From assembly GCA_023145835.1 (NCBI GenBank), contig JAGLDH010000121.1, forward strand, positions 1 to 64,000: DNA of 64,000 bases, in the 5' to 3' direction. This DNA comes from Methylococcales bacterium. GTDB lineage: Bacteria; Pseudomonadota; Gammaproteobacteria; Methylococcales; Methylomonadaceae. Positions 381 to 6,503 of this stretch are shown here, one piece after another. The position numbers were made by a program, and so were the translations under genes. Numbering within the stretch: the first letter of the stretch is position 1; each line of letters starts with the position of its first letter. The notes below the pieces were generated by a model. The model was not told the origin of the DNA. It did not search any database and saw nothing but the letters and a program-made list of their open reading frames with translations.

Positions 381-1586
381 TTAAATTTCACGCATTCCTT
401 CTGCTGGTTCGATGAAGGAGGCGCGGATACCTGCTAATGCAGCAACTAATATAGCAAGAAGGGTGGATGCCAATAAGGAAGTTAAATAGTGTACAGGAAG
501 TAGAATACAGACTTGTGTTCCTGTTTCTAATTGACTATTCATTAGGGTATTGATCCATAGAGAAACGACTTGATAAACAGCAACAGCTAATAACCATCCA
601 AAAAAAATGGTCAGTAAACTTTGTATAACTGGGAAAACAATTAAGTCTATTGTGGAGAAACCAATAACACGGATAATTGCAAGCTCTCTTCTTTTTCTTT
701 CCACATTGGCCCATAAATTTGCACCTAGAGATGTTGCGAAACCAATGATGCCAATCATGGCTATGATCCAATAGATAGTTGATAGAGTTTGTTCCATATT
801 TTGAACTGACTCTATTTCATCAACTTTAGTGATTACTTCTACACCTTGAGTTTCTAACCATTTTTGTAAGTTGGCAACACCTTGGAGGGATTGAGAAAAC
901 AGACGAAAACCCGTAAAATATTTCTCTTCTTTTATCGGCTCTGACCCAGGCCATTCTAGTGCTGGAACGGCTTGTCCATCTCGATAGCTTTCAATTGCTT
1001 CAAGTAAAGCGAGTGAAGTAAAAGCACCGTCACGAGTAAAAGCACTACTGCTAGCAATTGAAACTACCTTTAAGGGTAAGTGCTCCCGCTCTTTAGATCC
1101 CCTATAACGCCTTTGTATGCTTCCACTGATTATATCACCTGATTTAACATTTAATTTTTTTGCTACTGATTTTGATAAAACAATTGATTCAAATCTTTTG
1201 GGGTATTCTAATATATTGGAAAGTAAAGGGTCATTATTAGATGTTGGAATAAGTTCCACACTAATTATGCTAGGTGCATTTTGACTTTTCAAAGACATGC
1301 TTGCTGCTAGGCTACGAGTTTTTGGTACTAAAAAGCTAACATCGGGACGTTTTTTTAATTCCTCCATCCATTCAATATTAAAATGTCCACTATATACGGG
1401 TCTTAATTCACGATTTCTAGGGTCATCAATTAATTGCCCAAACATGCCTGAAATAATGCCGTATTTTAAAGCAAATAAAACCATCATTGGACCAAGTACT
1501 GCAGCTAAGGCAAGGATGTAACAACTAGAAATTTGCCAGTCATTAAAAAAATCTTTGATAGCTAACCTTGATATTTTAAAAATCAT
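381..1586 (-). CDS. ABC transporter permease, FtsX/MacB type (TagS-like)
   Basis: This 401-residue inner-membrane protein has one hydrophobic segment near the N-terminus (about residues 18-45) and a large soluble domain up to about residue 265. Three hydrophobic segments follow (about 270-295, 310-345 and 365-390), which is the layout of FtsX-like permeases that couple cytoplasmic ATP hydrolysis to periplasmic work instead of moving a solute. It starts 7 nt after the stop of the ATPase gene and is last in a three-gene operon with that ATPase and an exported vWA protein. The order and domain types resemble TagT-TagS next to PpkA in type VI secretion clusters, but that link is inference. A LolCDE- or MacB-like role is the alternative. 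Confidence 0.8.
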   Translation of the reverse strand: MIFKISRLAIKDFFNDWQISSCYILALAAVLGPMMVLFALKYGIISGMFGQLIDDPRNRELRPVYSGHFNIEWMEELKKRPDVSFLVPKTRSLAASMSLKSQNAPSIISVELIPTSNNDPLLSNILEYPKRFESIVLSKSVAKKLNVKSGDIISGSIQRRYRGSKEREHLPLKVVSIASSSAFTRDGAFTSLALLEAIESYRDGQAVPALEWPGSEPIKEEKYFTGFRLFSQSLQGVANLQKWLETQGVEVITKVDEIESVQNMEQTLSTIYWIIAMIGIIGFATSLGANLWANVERKRRELAIIRVIGFSTIDLIVFPVIQSLLTIFFGWLLAVAVYQVVSLWINTLMNSQLETGTQVCILLPVHYLTSLLASTLLAILVAALAGIRASFIEPAEGMREI

Positions 1587-1593
1587 AATGCGC

Positions 1594-2370
1594 TTATCCT
1601 GTCACTATAGTCTCTGTTTTCAACTCTTCGGGTGATCGTAACGAATGATGTGATAATCGACGTAACCCTAAGTCTTTAATGTCATCCCATGCATGGCTTG
1701 CAATAATAATTGTAATTCCCATTTCCTCTACTAATCGAATAAAAATATCCATGACCGTTCTTGATGCATAAGGGTCTAATGAAGCTGTAGGTTCATCGGC
1801 TATGATAATTTCAGGACGGTGAGCTAAAGCTCGAGCTATTGCCACGCGTTGGCGTTCACCAGTAGATAAAGATTTTGGTGGCTTTTTTAAATGATAATTT
1901 AGTCCTAATTCTTTTACTAGGGTATTTATAGTGTCATCTTTTGGCAGGCCAAGAATTTCACGAGAAAGAGAAATATTCTCTTTTACTGTTAAATACGGTA
2001 ACAAGCCTCCAGTCTGCATTACATAGCCAATATGTTGTCTACGAATTTTACTTAATGAATTATGACGCTGTTTTTTCCATAATTGATCAATATTTTTTTG
2101 ATGCACATTATCCTTAATTTTATGCTGAAAAATAAAAGTATCACTTTTAGTGGGTTGTGAAATAAAAGCTAACAAGTCTAATAGTGTTGATTTTCCACAA
2201 CCACTTTGCCCTATTAAAGCAATTTTTTCACCTTTAGTAATTTGCAAAGTTGGAATGGTTAGTTGAAAAGCAACACCTTCCGCCTCTCGGCTTTTATACA
2301 CACCTCGTAAGTCATAAATAATGTCATTTTTTAAAGAAGTAAAATTTTCTTTAGTTTCCATTTTTTGCAT
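1594..2370 (-). CDS. ABC transporter ATP-binding protein (TagT/LolD-like)
   Basis: A 258-residue ATPase with Walker A GQSGCGKST (about 54-62), Q-loop near YVMQTGG (116-122), signature LSTGERQRVAIARAL (168-182) and Walker B IIIADEPTASLDP (188-200). It should hydrolyse ATP on the cytoplasmic face and drive the adjacent FtsX-type permease. A charged insertion between Walker A and the Q-loop (about 75-108) makes it longer than the roughly 225-residue LolD/MacB ATPases. It lies 17 nt after the vWA gene and 7 nt before the permease gene, so the three are almost certainly co-transcribed. The ATPase family is certain; the cargo or partner is not shown by the sequence. Confidence 0.88.
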   Translation of the reverse strand: MQKMETKENFTSLKNDIIYDLRGVYKSREAEGVAFQLTIPTLQITKGEKIALIGQSGCGKSTLLDLLAFISQPTKSDTFIFQHKIKDNVHQKNIDQLWKKQRHNSLSKIRRQHIGYVMQTGGLLPYLTVKENISLSREILGLPKDDTINTLVKELGLNYHLKKPPKSLSTGERQRVAIARALAHRPEIIIADEPTASLDPYASRTVMDIFIRLVEEMGITIIIASHAWDDIKDLGLRRLSHHSLRSPEELKTETIVTG

Positions 2371-2387
2371 ATTTAATGATTCCTTCT

Positions 2388-4388
2388 TTAAGGGAGCATA
2401 TCCAAAGGTATTGGAAAAACTGAGTCACCATCTATTGAGCTACCCTTTAAACTTACCCATAAATCAATATTCTCGTGGAGATTTTGATAGTAATTAATTT
2501 TGTTTTCAAGATTTTGTAAAAATTCAATCTGTCGTTTAACAGGCCAACTCTGCCAATCATCTAAAGACATAGTCATTACCTCTCCGGTATAAGGTAGTCC
2601 TTCAATATATTCACGCATAAATCCCATTTCAGAAAGGCTGTGCCCTTCTCCAGCCGTAATTGCGGTTGTACCTCCTAATTGATCTGGATCACGCGATGTT
2701 GTTGCTGCTAAACTTTTAAGCTCATTAAGAAAATTTTTGGGTGAAATAACTCCTTTTTCAGCAGTATCTAATATTTGCTTTAAAATAATATGAAGATCTG
2801 ATAATTGGTTTCTTGTCAATAGTACCCTAACCTCGACCATTTTCTTTTCAGGGTTTTGAAAATCTTTATCAACTATCCAAGCTTTAAATACATTAGGAGC
2901 CTTTTCTCCTTTTTTTTTGTTGATGTATTTCATACGAAAGGCATAGCCTAGTTTCTCAACTTTAGATTTTAAAGACTGTAATTGTGTTTCTTCTTGTTCT
3001 TTTTCTTTGGTAGTTTCTTTAGAGTTTCCTAGTTTCATCTGGTCAACTTGAGCTGTAATTTGTGTAGACAAGCTTTCAATAGCCTTACCAAAATCACGAG
3101 TGCTACCAGTGGGGACACTATAATAAAAATCACCTATACCGGGATATTCAGAGAGTGACTTATATTGTTCTTCAGCCATCTTATGGTCAGCATAGCCAGA
3201 AGATGTTAATAAATGCATAACAAAAATAGCAACATTTTTTTTCTGTGCAAGTTCACGCAATTTGATTAAACTTGTGTCTGAGCTGGATAAAGGATCTTTT
3301 TCATCTCTAGAGCTAGCATCTGTAATCAATACGATATATCGAGCAGCAAAAGGAGACCATTCCATTTCTTGTAATGCTTGATGAACACCAGCAAAACTAT
3401 CTTCAACAAAACCACTGCTTGAAAAGTTAGTTGCTTTTAAGTCAGCAACTTGATCCATAAATGATTCTGGATTTTTACCTTGTTTTAAACTGACATATTG
3501 TTTTGTGACATATTCAATGTTTGGTGTTATGCCGATATTATCTCTAAAAGCAATTAGCCCAAAACTTACATCACCCAAAAGATTTGCTTGTTCAATGTGG
3601 TTGTATATTGTTTTTACAGCTTTTCGCGTTCGGTCAATATATGGTTGCATTGATAACGTTGAATCAATAACAAATGTAATTCCTGCAGCATAAGGGGTAT
3701 CAGAGGGCTTTTCCTGTTGATAAGGCGGATCAATAATTTTTTTTAATTCTGATACAGAGGAGGGAGAGGGATCATTTTCACCTAAAGGAATGCTAGAGAC
3801 TAGTAATAATCTGGCTGTTTCATCCTTCATGAAAAATTCTTCATAGCTATGAATGGGTATTAAATAAAAATTATTTCTAATATCAATATTTTCTGCAGGC
3901 TGAATAGCGACTACAGGTGAATTGGCTTGCTCCTTTCCTGAACTTGCTGCTTGATAAATTTTTTTATATTCCTTTAAATTTGAACTTGTTGCCAGTTTTT
4001 CAGCTGATAACTTGTCTTTGAATAACAATACTCTATCTTGTCCGGCTTTAGGGTCTTTAAAAGTTAATGTTAGTCTTTGGCTCCATTCCAATGTTTTTTC
4101 TTCTTTAATCCAACCTTCTGTTTTGCCATAACGTCCCAGTCCAACTTGTAGCCATTGTTGATTGTTTTCTGCATTTTTTCGTGCGTAAACATAATAGACA
4201 GTAAAAACGGGTAAGGGGGCAATATCTTTCTGAGTATCTTTAGCTTGAGGAAAAAGTTGAGCGTCTGGAAGTGAAAGAACTCTTTGATAGAGATTCTTTT
4301 TGTTTGCCATAAGTAATGGCTTATCATTTTTTGCTAGAGTTTGCAGACTAACGATAGTTAGTATAAAAATGAAAAATACTTGCTTCAT
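2388..4388 (-). CDS. Exported SH3-like/von Willebrand A protein (PpkA-type vWA region, no kinase domain)
   Basis: A 666-residue protein with an N-terminal signal peptide (hydrophobic run at 4-18, likely cleavage after TLA at about residue 19). An SH3-like region (about 60-125) contains GLGRYGKTEGWI. A von Willebrand A domain (about 230-450) begins FVIDSTLSM, giving the MIDAS pattern DxTxS, and VLITDASSRD supplies the later metal-site aspartate. A Lys/Glu-rich, probably coiled stretch lies at about 445-480. The C-terminal part ends FPIPLDMLP, which resembles the tail of the vWA half of type VI secretion kinase PpkA. No kinase motifs are present. It is first in an operon with an ABC ATPase and permease and probably acts in the periplasm, perhaps as a sensor or scaffold. 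The function is not established. Confidence 0.75.
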   Translation of the reverse strand: MKQVFFIFILTIVSLQTLAKNDKPLLMANKKNLYQRVLSLPDAQLFPQAKDTQKDIAPLPVFTVYYVYARKNAENNQQWLQVGLGRYGKTEGWIKEEKTLEWSQRLTLTFKDPKAGQDRVLLFKDKLSAEKLATSSNLKEYKKIYQAASSGKEQANSPVVAIQPAENIDIRNNFYLIPIHSYEEFFMKDETARLLLVSSIPLGENDPSPSSVSELKKIIDPPYQQEKPSDTPYAAGITFVIDSTLSMQPYIDRTRKAVKTIYNHIEQANLLGDVSFGLIAFRDNIGITPNIEYVTKQYVSLKQGKNPESFMDQVADLKATNFSSSGFVEDSFAGVHQALQEMEWSPFAARYIVLITDASSRDEKDPLSSSDTSLIKLRELAQKKNVAIFVMHLLTSSGYADHKMAEEQYKSLSEYPGIGDFYYSVPTGSTRDFGKAIESLSTQITAQVDQMKLGNSKETTKEKEQEETQLQSLKSKVEKLGYAFRMKYINKKKGEKAPNVFKAWIVDKDFQNPEKKMVEVRVLLTRNQLSDLHIILKQILDTAEKGVISPKNFLNELKSLAATTSRDPDQLGGTTAITAGEGHSLSEMGFMREYIEGLPYTGEVMTMSLDDWQSWPVKRQIEFLQNLENKINYYQNLHENIDLWVSLKGSSIDGDSVFPIPLDMLP

Positions 4389-4938
4389 AATGATTGCATT
4401 TATTTAATTAAGTTTGTAAGAGCTACTTGCAAAAAATATTAATGCAAAGAAGGAGTTAGTCACCTAGGTAGCTAAAGATAAGCAAACGTACTAATTTATC
4501 AATGATAAAAAGGGATTTTAAATAAAAGCCAAAAATATCGGTAAAATGAGTAAGTTACTCAACAGATTATCATAAACCTAATGGGGTATTCAAGGGTCTT
4601 TGTTTTCTTGGATTGTAAAAGTACTCGGTGGGATGTTGCAGAAAAATAGGGGTTATAGCGGAATAAAAAACGTTTATAAATTGACGAAAGCATGTGTTTT
4701 ATTGATATAAGATGTTCACTAAAAGGTTATACATCAAATGGAAAAACTTTTATTACGAGATGATTTATAGCATGTTCACAACGAATTACAATAAAAGTGA
4801 GCCTCTGTTAAGTCAAGTCAGAATTGATATAGAAAAGCCTTTAACCTAATGGTGGCTTTACTTACACCGTTTTATAAGTTCGTTCACATGCTATCTATGG
4901 AATAAAGAATTATTATATAGAATTGGTTTTTTGATAAA
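4389..4938. other. Intergenic region between the vWA operon and the Roadblock cluster
   Basis: These 550 bases contain no convincing gene. They should hold the promoter of the minus-strand vWA operon, but no clear -35/-10 pair was recognised. Around 4798-4840 there is a degenerate resemblance to one end of repeat family A. ATAGCATGT at 4767 and ACATGCTAT at 4886 form an inverted pair about 110 bp apart. Both are weak signals. Confidence 0.45.
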
Positions 4939-5301
4939 TTAGAGGACTTTAATAATTCTTTCCACAGCTCTTTTTACATCTAGAAAAATTAAGCCTAGTT
5001 TTGCATTAGGTTTTGCTATTACAGTTAAAACAGCATCAGATCCTGCGTAAGACATGAGTACATAGCCATCATTACCTTTAATTAAAACTTGCTTCAATTC
5101 TCCTCGATTGAGTTCCTGAGCTGTTCTATCTCCTAGCGAAAGCATTGCTGCACTCATCGCTCCCACGCGATCTTCATCAAGTCCTGCTGGTAAAACAGAG
5201 GCTATCATCAAGCCGTCTGTAGAAATTACACCAGAGGCTTCGATATCAGCTGATGTACCATTTAATTCATTTAATATTGATGTTAGTAAATCTTCTCTCA
5301 T
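4939..5301 (-). CDS. Roadblock/LC7 domain protein (MglB-like)
   Basis: A 120-residue single-domain protein. The Roadblock/LC7 fold is recognisable from the pattern LTSILNELN (5-13), a GVISTDGLMIASVLP strand pair (24-38), AMLSLGDRTAQEL in the middle helix and VLTVIAKPNAKLGLIFLDVKRAVE at the C-terminus. Family members dimerise and commonly regulate small Ras-like GTPases, as MglB does for MglA in polarity and gliding or type IV pilus motility. No GTPase gene is in the window, so the partner is unknown. It is the last of three closely spaced minus-strand genes, 20 nt after the next one. Family assignment is strong; the biological role is open. Confidence 0.85.
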   Translation of the reverse strand: MREDLLTSILNELNGTSADIEASGVISTDGLMIASVLPAGLDEDRVGAMSAAMLSLGDRTAQELNRGELKQVLIKGNDGYVLMSYAGSDAVLTVIAKPNAKLGLIFLDVKRAVERIIKVL

Positions 5302-5321
5302 AGTAATCCTTAATTATTAAA

Positions 5322-5960
5322 TTAGATTTGTTGATAGCGAATACTTAATGCCCAGATTAGTGTGACAAAACCTGGTCTATTAAAATGTGGAATACCAGAA
5401 ATAGTGATAACAAATTGACTATCTCCAATGAATAGAGGCCAAAAGCCTAATTGGCTACTGCCAAATGCATCAACAATTGCCCAGGCATGACTGTCAATTG
5501 TTAAGCTATTTGCTAGCATATCTATTCTTCTCTCATGTATTGTTTCTATTTCTGCACTAATAGCAGAGAGCTGTTCCGCAGTTTCATTAGTAAAGCCACT
5601 GCAAGCAAGATGAAATCCTTGTTCATCAGATAATAATACGTTTCCTGTTTCAGATACCTTATCTAAGAGAGAAGGGAGTATAGTATCCAGAGTACCTATG
5701 GGAGATTCTATGCTTTCTTTAACCCCTTGAATCCAGCCTTTATTTTGGCAGTGATGTAGTAATTCTATAGCATCTTTTTCTGATTCAACATTCATTAAGT
5801 TTTTTAATGTTTTAATGTTTAATGCTGGAGTTCTAGGTTGTTTTAATAGCCGATTAATGAAATTTTTTGCATCATCACCAATAAATGAAGATACTGCATA
5901 ATAACAGCCAATAGGGGTCGGATAGATAAATAGTCCATCGACTAGAATATGTTTGCTCAC
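5322..5960 (-). CDS. Uncharacterised protein with probable C-terminal Roadblock-like domain
   Basis: A 212-residue protein not assigned to a named family. It starts with GTG; the spacing to an upstream AAGGAT is good. The first 100 residues look like a small helical, possibly winged-helix unit (TLKNLMNVESEKDAIELLHH, then GWIQGV). The last 110 resemble a Roadblock/LC7 fold: NVLLSDEQGFHLACSGF (about 106-122), AEQLSAISAEIETIHERR (127-144) and a strand-rich C-terminus. It lies between a clear Roadblock protein and another unknown gene on the same strand. A role as partner of the neighbouring Roadblock protein is inference from context and fold pattern. Confidence 0.6.
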   Translation of the reverse strand: MSKHILVDGLFIYPTPIGCYYAVSSFIGDDAKNFINRLLKQPRTPALNIKTLKNLMNVESEKDAIELLHHCQNKGWIQGVKESIESPIGTLDTILPSLLDKVSETGNVLLSDEQGFHLACSGFTNETAEQLSAISAEIETIHERRIDMLANSLTIDSHAWAIVDAFGSSQLGFWPLFIGDSQFVITISGIPHFNRPGFVTLIWALSIRYQQI

Positions 5961-6017
5961 TCTTTTTTATCCTTACGAAGGGTTTGAAAAAGTTTGATAT
6001 ATCTTAACTAGGAAAAG

Positions 6018-6503
6018 TTAGTTGCTTTTTTTAGCAAGTAAAATAGAAGAACCAATTAATCCTTTTGTAAGTACTGTATATTTGTTTTCGGGTAATAGCG
6101 TCAAATCCTGAGTTTGTAAATATCGAGTTAAAGTTTGGTGTTGTTGGTTCGATAATAATGAATGGGAGAGGGAAATCATACGGTTACTTAATTGTTTGCC
6201 GTTGCCATCTAGTATCAAAAGTAAGTCAATTAATGCAGCATACAATGGGCTATTCATCTTCCATGTGTAAGTGAAGTAAACTCTTTGTATATGAGACATT
6301 AAATGTTTTGGGTTTCTTAATACCTTAAATACTATTTGAGTATACTGATCATTATTCTCTTTTGCTGTTATTGTTGTCCATAGTACATGTTTAACCAAAA
6401 ATTTTTGGTTGGATTCAATAGATGCTGAGTTAATTTCGTTTTCAGCTTTAAATAATGGAAGACTTTGTAACATATTTAAGTCGTAGAGATAATTAATAAA
6501 CAC
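6018..6503 (-). CDS. Uncharacterised protein, first gene of the Roadblock cluster
   Basis: A 161-residue protein of unknown family, probably cytoplasmic. There is no signal peptide or membrane segment, and most of it looks helical. Start choice is uncertain: GTG at 6503 sits almost against a GAAGGA box, while ATG at 6473 (residue 11) has no visible ribosome site. It lies 57 nt upstream of the next gene on the same strand, so it is probably the promoter-proximal gene of the three-gene Roadblock cluster. No catalytic motif was recognised. Confidence 0.55.
   Translation of the reverse strand: MFINYLYDLNMLQSLPLFKAENEINSASIESNQKFLVKHVLWTTITAKENNDQYTQIVFKVLRNPKHLMSHIQRVYFTYTWKMNSPLYAALIDLLLILDGNGKQLSNRMISLSHSLLSNQQHQTLTRYLQTQDLTLLPENKYTVLTKGLIGSSILLAKKSN

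Follow-up and report, generated by a model that had tools for sequence, protein, structure and literature searches.

What might a gene set akin to the PpkA, TagT and TagS proteins of type VI secretion system (T6SS) control do when it stands alone? The question is raised by an operon at positions 381-4388 (minus strand) of a Methylococcales contig, of which the whole 64,000-nucleotide stretch analysed is referred to here as the window.

The operon and its three proteins

Reading of the open reading frames gave three intact minus-strand genes, in the order vWA, ABC, permease, preceded by a non-coding gap:

2388..4388, minus strand: exported protein with a vWA domain, 666 aa, counterpart of the PpkA periplasmic half (ORF, Pfam, profile, alignment and fold model)
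1594..2370, minus strand: TagT-like ABC ATPase, 258 aa, full set of catalytic motifs, 41-45% identity to TagT of T6SS clusters
381..1586, minus strand: TagS-like FtsX-type permease, 401 aa, four TM helices, 34-38% identity to TagS of T6SS clusters
4389..4938, no strand: non-coding gap, site of a Sel1-like output gene in most relatives, no remnant seen

The frames have ATG starts and TAA stops, and their base composition matches that of the rest of the window. As the intergenic gaps are only 17 bp (vWA/ABC) and 7 bp (ABC/permease), the trio was considered operon-like. The contig begins at window base 1, so that 380 bp are visible past the permease gene; the draft source genome comprises 245 contigs totalling 3.9 Mb and is 95.6% complete.

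A preliminary description of this DNA, made from its letters, had presented the first product as an exported SH3-like/vWA protein with a MIDAS site. The N-terminal start, MKQVFFIFILTIVSLQTLA, is signal-peptide-like and has no lipobox. Pfam VWA_4 matched at 29.7 bits (cut-off 27) and a fold search returned integrin I/vWA domains with a probability of 1.00; a PDB sequence search gave no significant match. The vWA domain spans residues about 235-453 and contains a MIDAS-type motif, D242-S-T-L-S246 plus T356-D357. In an alignment of 49 homologues D242, S246, T356 and D357 were invariant, and the middle position of the motif was mostly T, not S. Export signal, vWA domain and MIDAS site were thereby upheld, but the SH3 identity of the N-terminus was not, as no SH3 family in Pfam matched any of the 49 members. 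The structure model has a beta-rich N-terminal domain at about residues 36-123, and the C-terminal region is conserved and helical, terminating in PIPLDMLP. In 13 of the 49 aligned members, TssR_VWA (PF20782), which models the vWA domain of TssR, matched weakly (best E 0.014).

Walker A, signature, Walker B and H-loop were all found in the ATPase. The permease has an FtsX domain above the Pfam cut-off and four TM helices, a large periplasmic domain separating TM1 from TM2. With adjacent intact frames, this is concordant with the single operon with an ABC ATPase and FtsX-type permease described earlier. The permease model resembles the LolE, MacB, YtrF and FtsX folds, and the trio has its permease fold and ATPase superfamily in common with the type VII ABC systems LolCDE, MacAB and FtsEX. 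That fold also serves lipoprotein extraction (LolCDE) and the driving of cell-wall hydrolases (FtsEX), neither of which is sensing, and we know of no vWA partner in these systems. Against the curated LolCDE and MacB models, however, the trio sequences scored far below the family cut-offs: the permease reached 28 bits with LolE (cut-off 439), 23 with lolCE (362) and 8 with MacB (966), and the ATPase 130 bits with LolD (308). These scores and the conserved order of the trio ruled out LolCDE or MacB with a chance vWA neighbour, which the preliminary description had named as a refuting case.

Kinship to T6SS control proteins and linkage to T6SS genes

The proposed kinship to PpkA, TagT and TagS was confirmed, as the three proteins are homologous over their full length to the PpkA periplasmic half, TagT and TagS, respectively. 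A vWA profile built from members without any T6SS found proteins of about 1000 aa in Pseudomonadaceae, with PpkA scoring 600-625 bits. In all five Pseudomonadaceae loci fetched (5/5), the matched protein was a kinase-TM-vWA protein (PpkA), flanked by TssK, TssM, TagF, PppA, TagT, TagS and TagR. A Tistrella plasmid harbours a T6SS cluster (tssHJKM-tagF-PP2C-kinase-vWA-ABC-FtsX-SUMF1) in which kinase and vWA are separate genes. Identity of the window proteins to those of the Pseudomonadaceae and Tistrella T6SS loci was 31-35% for the vWA protein, 41-45% for the ATPase and 34-38% for the permease; with PpkA of the verified Pseudomonadaceae loci, the vWA protein shared 34-35% over about 650 aa.

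The TagQRST-PpkA pathway of the Pseudomonas H1-T6SS is needed for the H1-T6SS response to atomic force microscopy (AFM) indentation and outer-membrane damage, and H1-T6SS assembly in response to either AFM indentation or polymyxin B nonapeptide, which damages the outer membrane, depends on TagQ and PpkA (PMC11881912). A sensor role has been proposed for the PpkA vWA domain (PMC3224232). The vWA half, TagT and TagS of this pathway are homologous to the window proteins and encoded in the same order, whereas the window has no kinase, TM fusion, PppA, TagF, TagR or T6SS genes, and its vWA part is a separately secreted protein instead of being fused to a kinase and TM segment as in PpkA.

The vWA half had been described as standing alone, and this was the case. 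Kinase, phosphatase, TagR, TssK, TssM, TagH, TagF and PppA were not found in the window, nor a kinase in the vWA ORF. The T6SS sheath gene product TssC was not found in the source genome (control positive in E. coli), so the draft gave no sign of a T6SS tag cluster just outside the window. Neither were SrfA, SrfB, SrfC and SrfD found in the window, nor SrfB in the genome, with a model that had no positive control genome but matches Klebsiella SrfB at 1252 bits. A hidden T6SS or srf cluster was rejected on these grounds.

The survey of genomes with and without T6SS suggested in the preliminary description was performed on 369 gammaproteobacterial genomes, 26 with a substantial match to the vWA family and 70 with TssC. 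TssC was present in 6/26 genomes with the family and in 64/343 without it. This overlap is no more than expected by chance (Fisher p = 0.60), which indicates that the trio mostly lives without a T6SS. A separate system with the same core parts was thus borne out, but as a large clade and not as a peculiarity of the window.

Homologues of tagQRST and ppkA linked to srfABC were reported in 2013 in host-associated Deltaproteobacteria, only one of which had T6SS machinery genes (PMC3608642). These Desulfovibrio-type loci were grouped with the srfABC-linked vWA/ABC/FtsX/SUMF1 loci of Klebsiella and Lelliottia plasmids and of Pseudomonas. The latter have the trio in the same order as the window, with a secreted vWA protein, and were kinase-free in the loci read. 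Unlike the window, they possess srfABC, a SrfD that carries a Sel1 domain and, in most cases, a TagR-like protein; the source genome as a whole yielded neither SrfB nor a Sel1 domain. In a survey of plasmids the srf form turned up in Lelliottia and others as well as in Klebsiella, where 114 records had a vWA match. The Klebsiella plasmids with the kinase-free vWA relative were mostly from K. pneumoniae; on one IncFIB plasmid (L020, NZ_CP045662.1) the vWA/ABC/FtsX/SUMF1 set lies behind srfABC. The kinase-free plasmid protein is sometimes annotated as a Ser/Thr kinase despite having no kinase domain.

Output partners among relatives and the position of the window copy

A recurring output partner of the relatives, absent from the window, had been overlooked in the preliminary description. 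Among 124 distinct loci, the vWA gene was usually followed by the ABC and permease genes, the ABC/permease pair being divergently transcribed in AAA_22-fused loci. Upstream DNA was visible in 119 loci, and in 104 of these a protein with a Sel1-like C-terminus was encoded directly upstream of the vWA gene. In the examples checked, a TM helix precedes the Sel1-like domain, which is assigned to the periplasm, the variable end being cytosolic. The cytosolic part of the 104 partners was a short tail (72), SrfD (29), AAA_22 (2) or, in Tistrella, a kinase (1). In 8 of the 119 loci the vWA protein and its output form one fused protein with a TM helix in between, the output being a kinase in 5 and AAA_22 in 3; a Sel1 domain was seen in none of the eight. 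The remaining loci comprised one with a divergent SrfD and six, including the window, without a recognised partner.

Two lines of evidence underlie the Sel1-like assignment: Pfam Sel1 matched 12 of 17 proteins, though weakly (best E 0.0003), and a custom profile gave matches that include the C-termini of kinase and SrfD proteins. Since the small TM proteins were themselves the training set of this profile, the 72 short-tail cases are partly so by construction, whereas the SrfD and kinase matches are independent. Two divergent members, L029 (G060) and L240 (G607), have no Sel1 partner. The L029 vWA protein begins with a zinc-ribbon-like stretch of cysteine pairs and a hydrophobic segment, and similar short proteins adjoin it.

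In a tree made by a quick method, with SH-aLRT support and some long branches, the kinase-free forms without srf genes constituted a group of 37 rows (100% support), with the window inside it. This deep, well-supported clade occurs in sulfur- and methane-oxidising Gammaproteobacteria. Its Chromatiales, Thiodiazotropha and Sedimenticola loci have the window's trio, no kinase and no adjoining T6SS genes, but differ in that the gene immediately upstream encodes a small TM protein bearing a Sel1-like domain. The window falls in a Methylococcales-centred sub-group with AAA_22 forms (100), as sister to the fused ones (95), on a long branch (0.58 changes per site). Its closest tree relatives (L066-L070, from Methylococcales and other gammaproteobacterial MAGs; 52-59% identity) share the trio and carry AAA_22-TM-Sel1 plus vWA, or a fused AAA_22-TM-vWA protein, with ABC/FtsX, whereas the AAA_22 domain is in no form present in the window.

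No Sel1-like TM partner was found in the window or in the source genome, the latter in a search without a known-positive control genome, and no AAA_22 orthologue was found in the genome. Six-frame translation of the 550-bp gap upstream of the vWA gene matched neither Sel1 nor AAA_22 nor a kinase and showed no long open frame, and a decayed partner at this site was rejected. The window copy is accordingly described as an orphan receptor, with neither partner type found in a 96%-complete draft; the simplest reading of these sequences is that the trio lost, or became separated from, an AAA_22 output.

Further upstream (4939-6503, minus strand) three genes follow one another. They encode a Roadblock/LC7 protein of 120 aa, a protein of 212 aa that matches Roadblock weakly, and one of 161 aa of unknown family; none of the three was seen next to the trio among the relatives compared. 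The Roadblock genes (4939-5960) were rejected as a component of the trio, as the queries gave no match in the loci of the ten relatives compared. An anti-phage defence role was also rejected, since PADLOC had no match to the vWA protein or the permease and gave only generic ATPase matches for the ABC protein, as was a phage origin of the trio, for which no match was found.

Possible function and alternative explanations

We lean towards reading the operon as a stand-alone TagS-TagT/PpkA-vWA envelope receptor. By analogy with Pseudomonas, the only group in which sensing of outer-membrane damage is known and from which sensing is extrapolated, the trio appears most likely to be a receptor that monitors envelope integrity and is powered by a type VII ABC motor. 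The TagS-like and TagT-like subunits would form an inner-membrane ABC complex of the type VII (MacB/LolCDE) fold, whose head, located between TM1 and TM2, lies in the periplasm. This head would be the docking site of the secreted vWA protein, and the metal site of that protein may bind an envelope component. Damage or rearrangement of the envelope would alter the complex, and ATP turnover would pass on or reset the change. In most relatives the signal may then reach the cytoplasm through the membrane-anchored Sel1-like partner or a direct fusion, ending in a kinase, an AAA_22 ATPase or SrfD. Most simply, the vWA protein and the TagST-like complex would be the receptor, and the Sel1 protein or the fusion the transmitter. 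The ligand, the docking and the direction of signalling, like mechanosensing by the trio, are what we infer from these comparisons.

As the output protein is missing in the window, its receptor would act within the envelope or with an unlinked partner. Both output types of the nearest relatives are lacking, so that cytoplasmic signalling by the window copy is unsupported. For want of a known transmitter, three rivals stay serious: an inside-out function, use of an unlinked partner, and decay. An inside-out machine would use ATP hydrolysis to move the periplasmic vWA protein for envelope work, as in FtsEX-EnvC, MacB and LolCDE, and would send no signal to the cytoplasm. The LolE/MacB/FtsX class of the permease fold and the lack of a detectable cytosolic output protein in the window are consistent with this, but in nearly every relative the vWA gene adjoins the gene of an output protein that is cytosolic or anchored in the membrane, the best-studied relative is a signalling system (PMC11881912) and the permease is far below the LolCE and MacB family cut-offs. 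We consider such a machine rather unlikely.

About equally improbable is a complete signalling system whose output is encoded elsewhere, either by an unlinked AAA-TM-repeat protein or by a gene lost in assembly gaps, the genome being about 96% complete. A candidate at L033 (G000:C1:17234-19276) is an AAA-TM-TPR protein whose topology is that of the AAA_22 partners; among 46 relatives it matched strongly only in G013, a genome whose own trio is close to the window's. However, partners are adjacent in almost all relatives, and the candidate has no Sel1-like domain and belongs to a many-copy paralogue family. Moreover, G013 already has its own fused AAA, and no shared gene neighbourhood was seen. 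We regard the protein as a weak candidate for the trio partner.

Somewhat less probable still is a relic, in which the lineage would have lost a fused or split AAA_22 output and the leftover trio would be disappearing. The position within the AAA_22 group, as sister to the fused forms, and the failure to find an AAA_22 orthologue or Sel1 protein in the genome point in this direction, as does the occurrence of the family in only one of eight other genomes of the genus (G008), where it is of a different, srf-linked type. Against this, all three frames are unbroken, and catalytic residues and MIDAS positions have been retained in spite of the long branch, which implies selection on the trio proteins until recently.

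Across the family, the sensor looks like a general-purpose module to which different outputs are attached. We tentatively propose, at less than even confidence, that TagST and the PpkA-type vWA protein together make up an ancient envelope receptor of general use, with interchangeable outputs (kinase/T6SS, SrfABC, AAA_22 ATPase or a membrane anchor only), joined through a Sel1-like periplasmic connector or by fusion. T6SS control would then be one use, and the window copy a bare receptor working without an output protein. A literature search for Sel1 with vWA, FtsX or T6SS returned nothing relevant, and the searches run turned up neither an experiment on a kinase-free member nor an earlier description of the kinase-free clade, of AAA_22 as an output or of a Sel1-like connector; the partner pattern is new here. 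For the question of how Pseudomonas senses an envelope attack before firing its T6SS, a weapon-free receptor, present in more than 100 sampled loci and also on clinical Klebsiella plasmids, can be studied separately. Split and fused forms point, independently of each other, to the Sel1-like connector as a concrete site at which docking of receptor and output can be tested. At one locus (L169:5221-6837) a TagR-like (SUMF1) protein has a Sel1-like C-terminal domain, a fusion which suggests that the connector also joins the TagR part.
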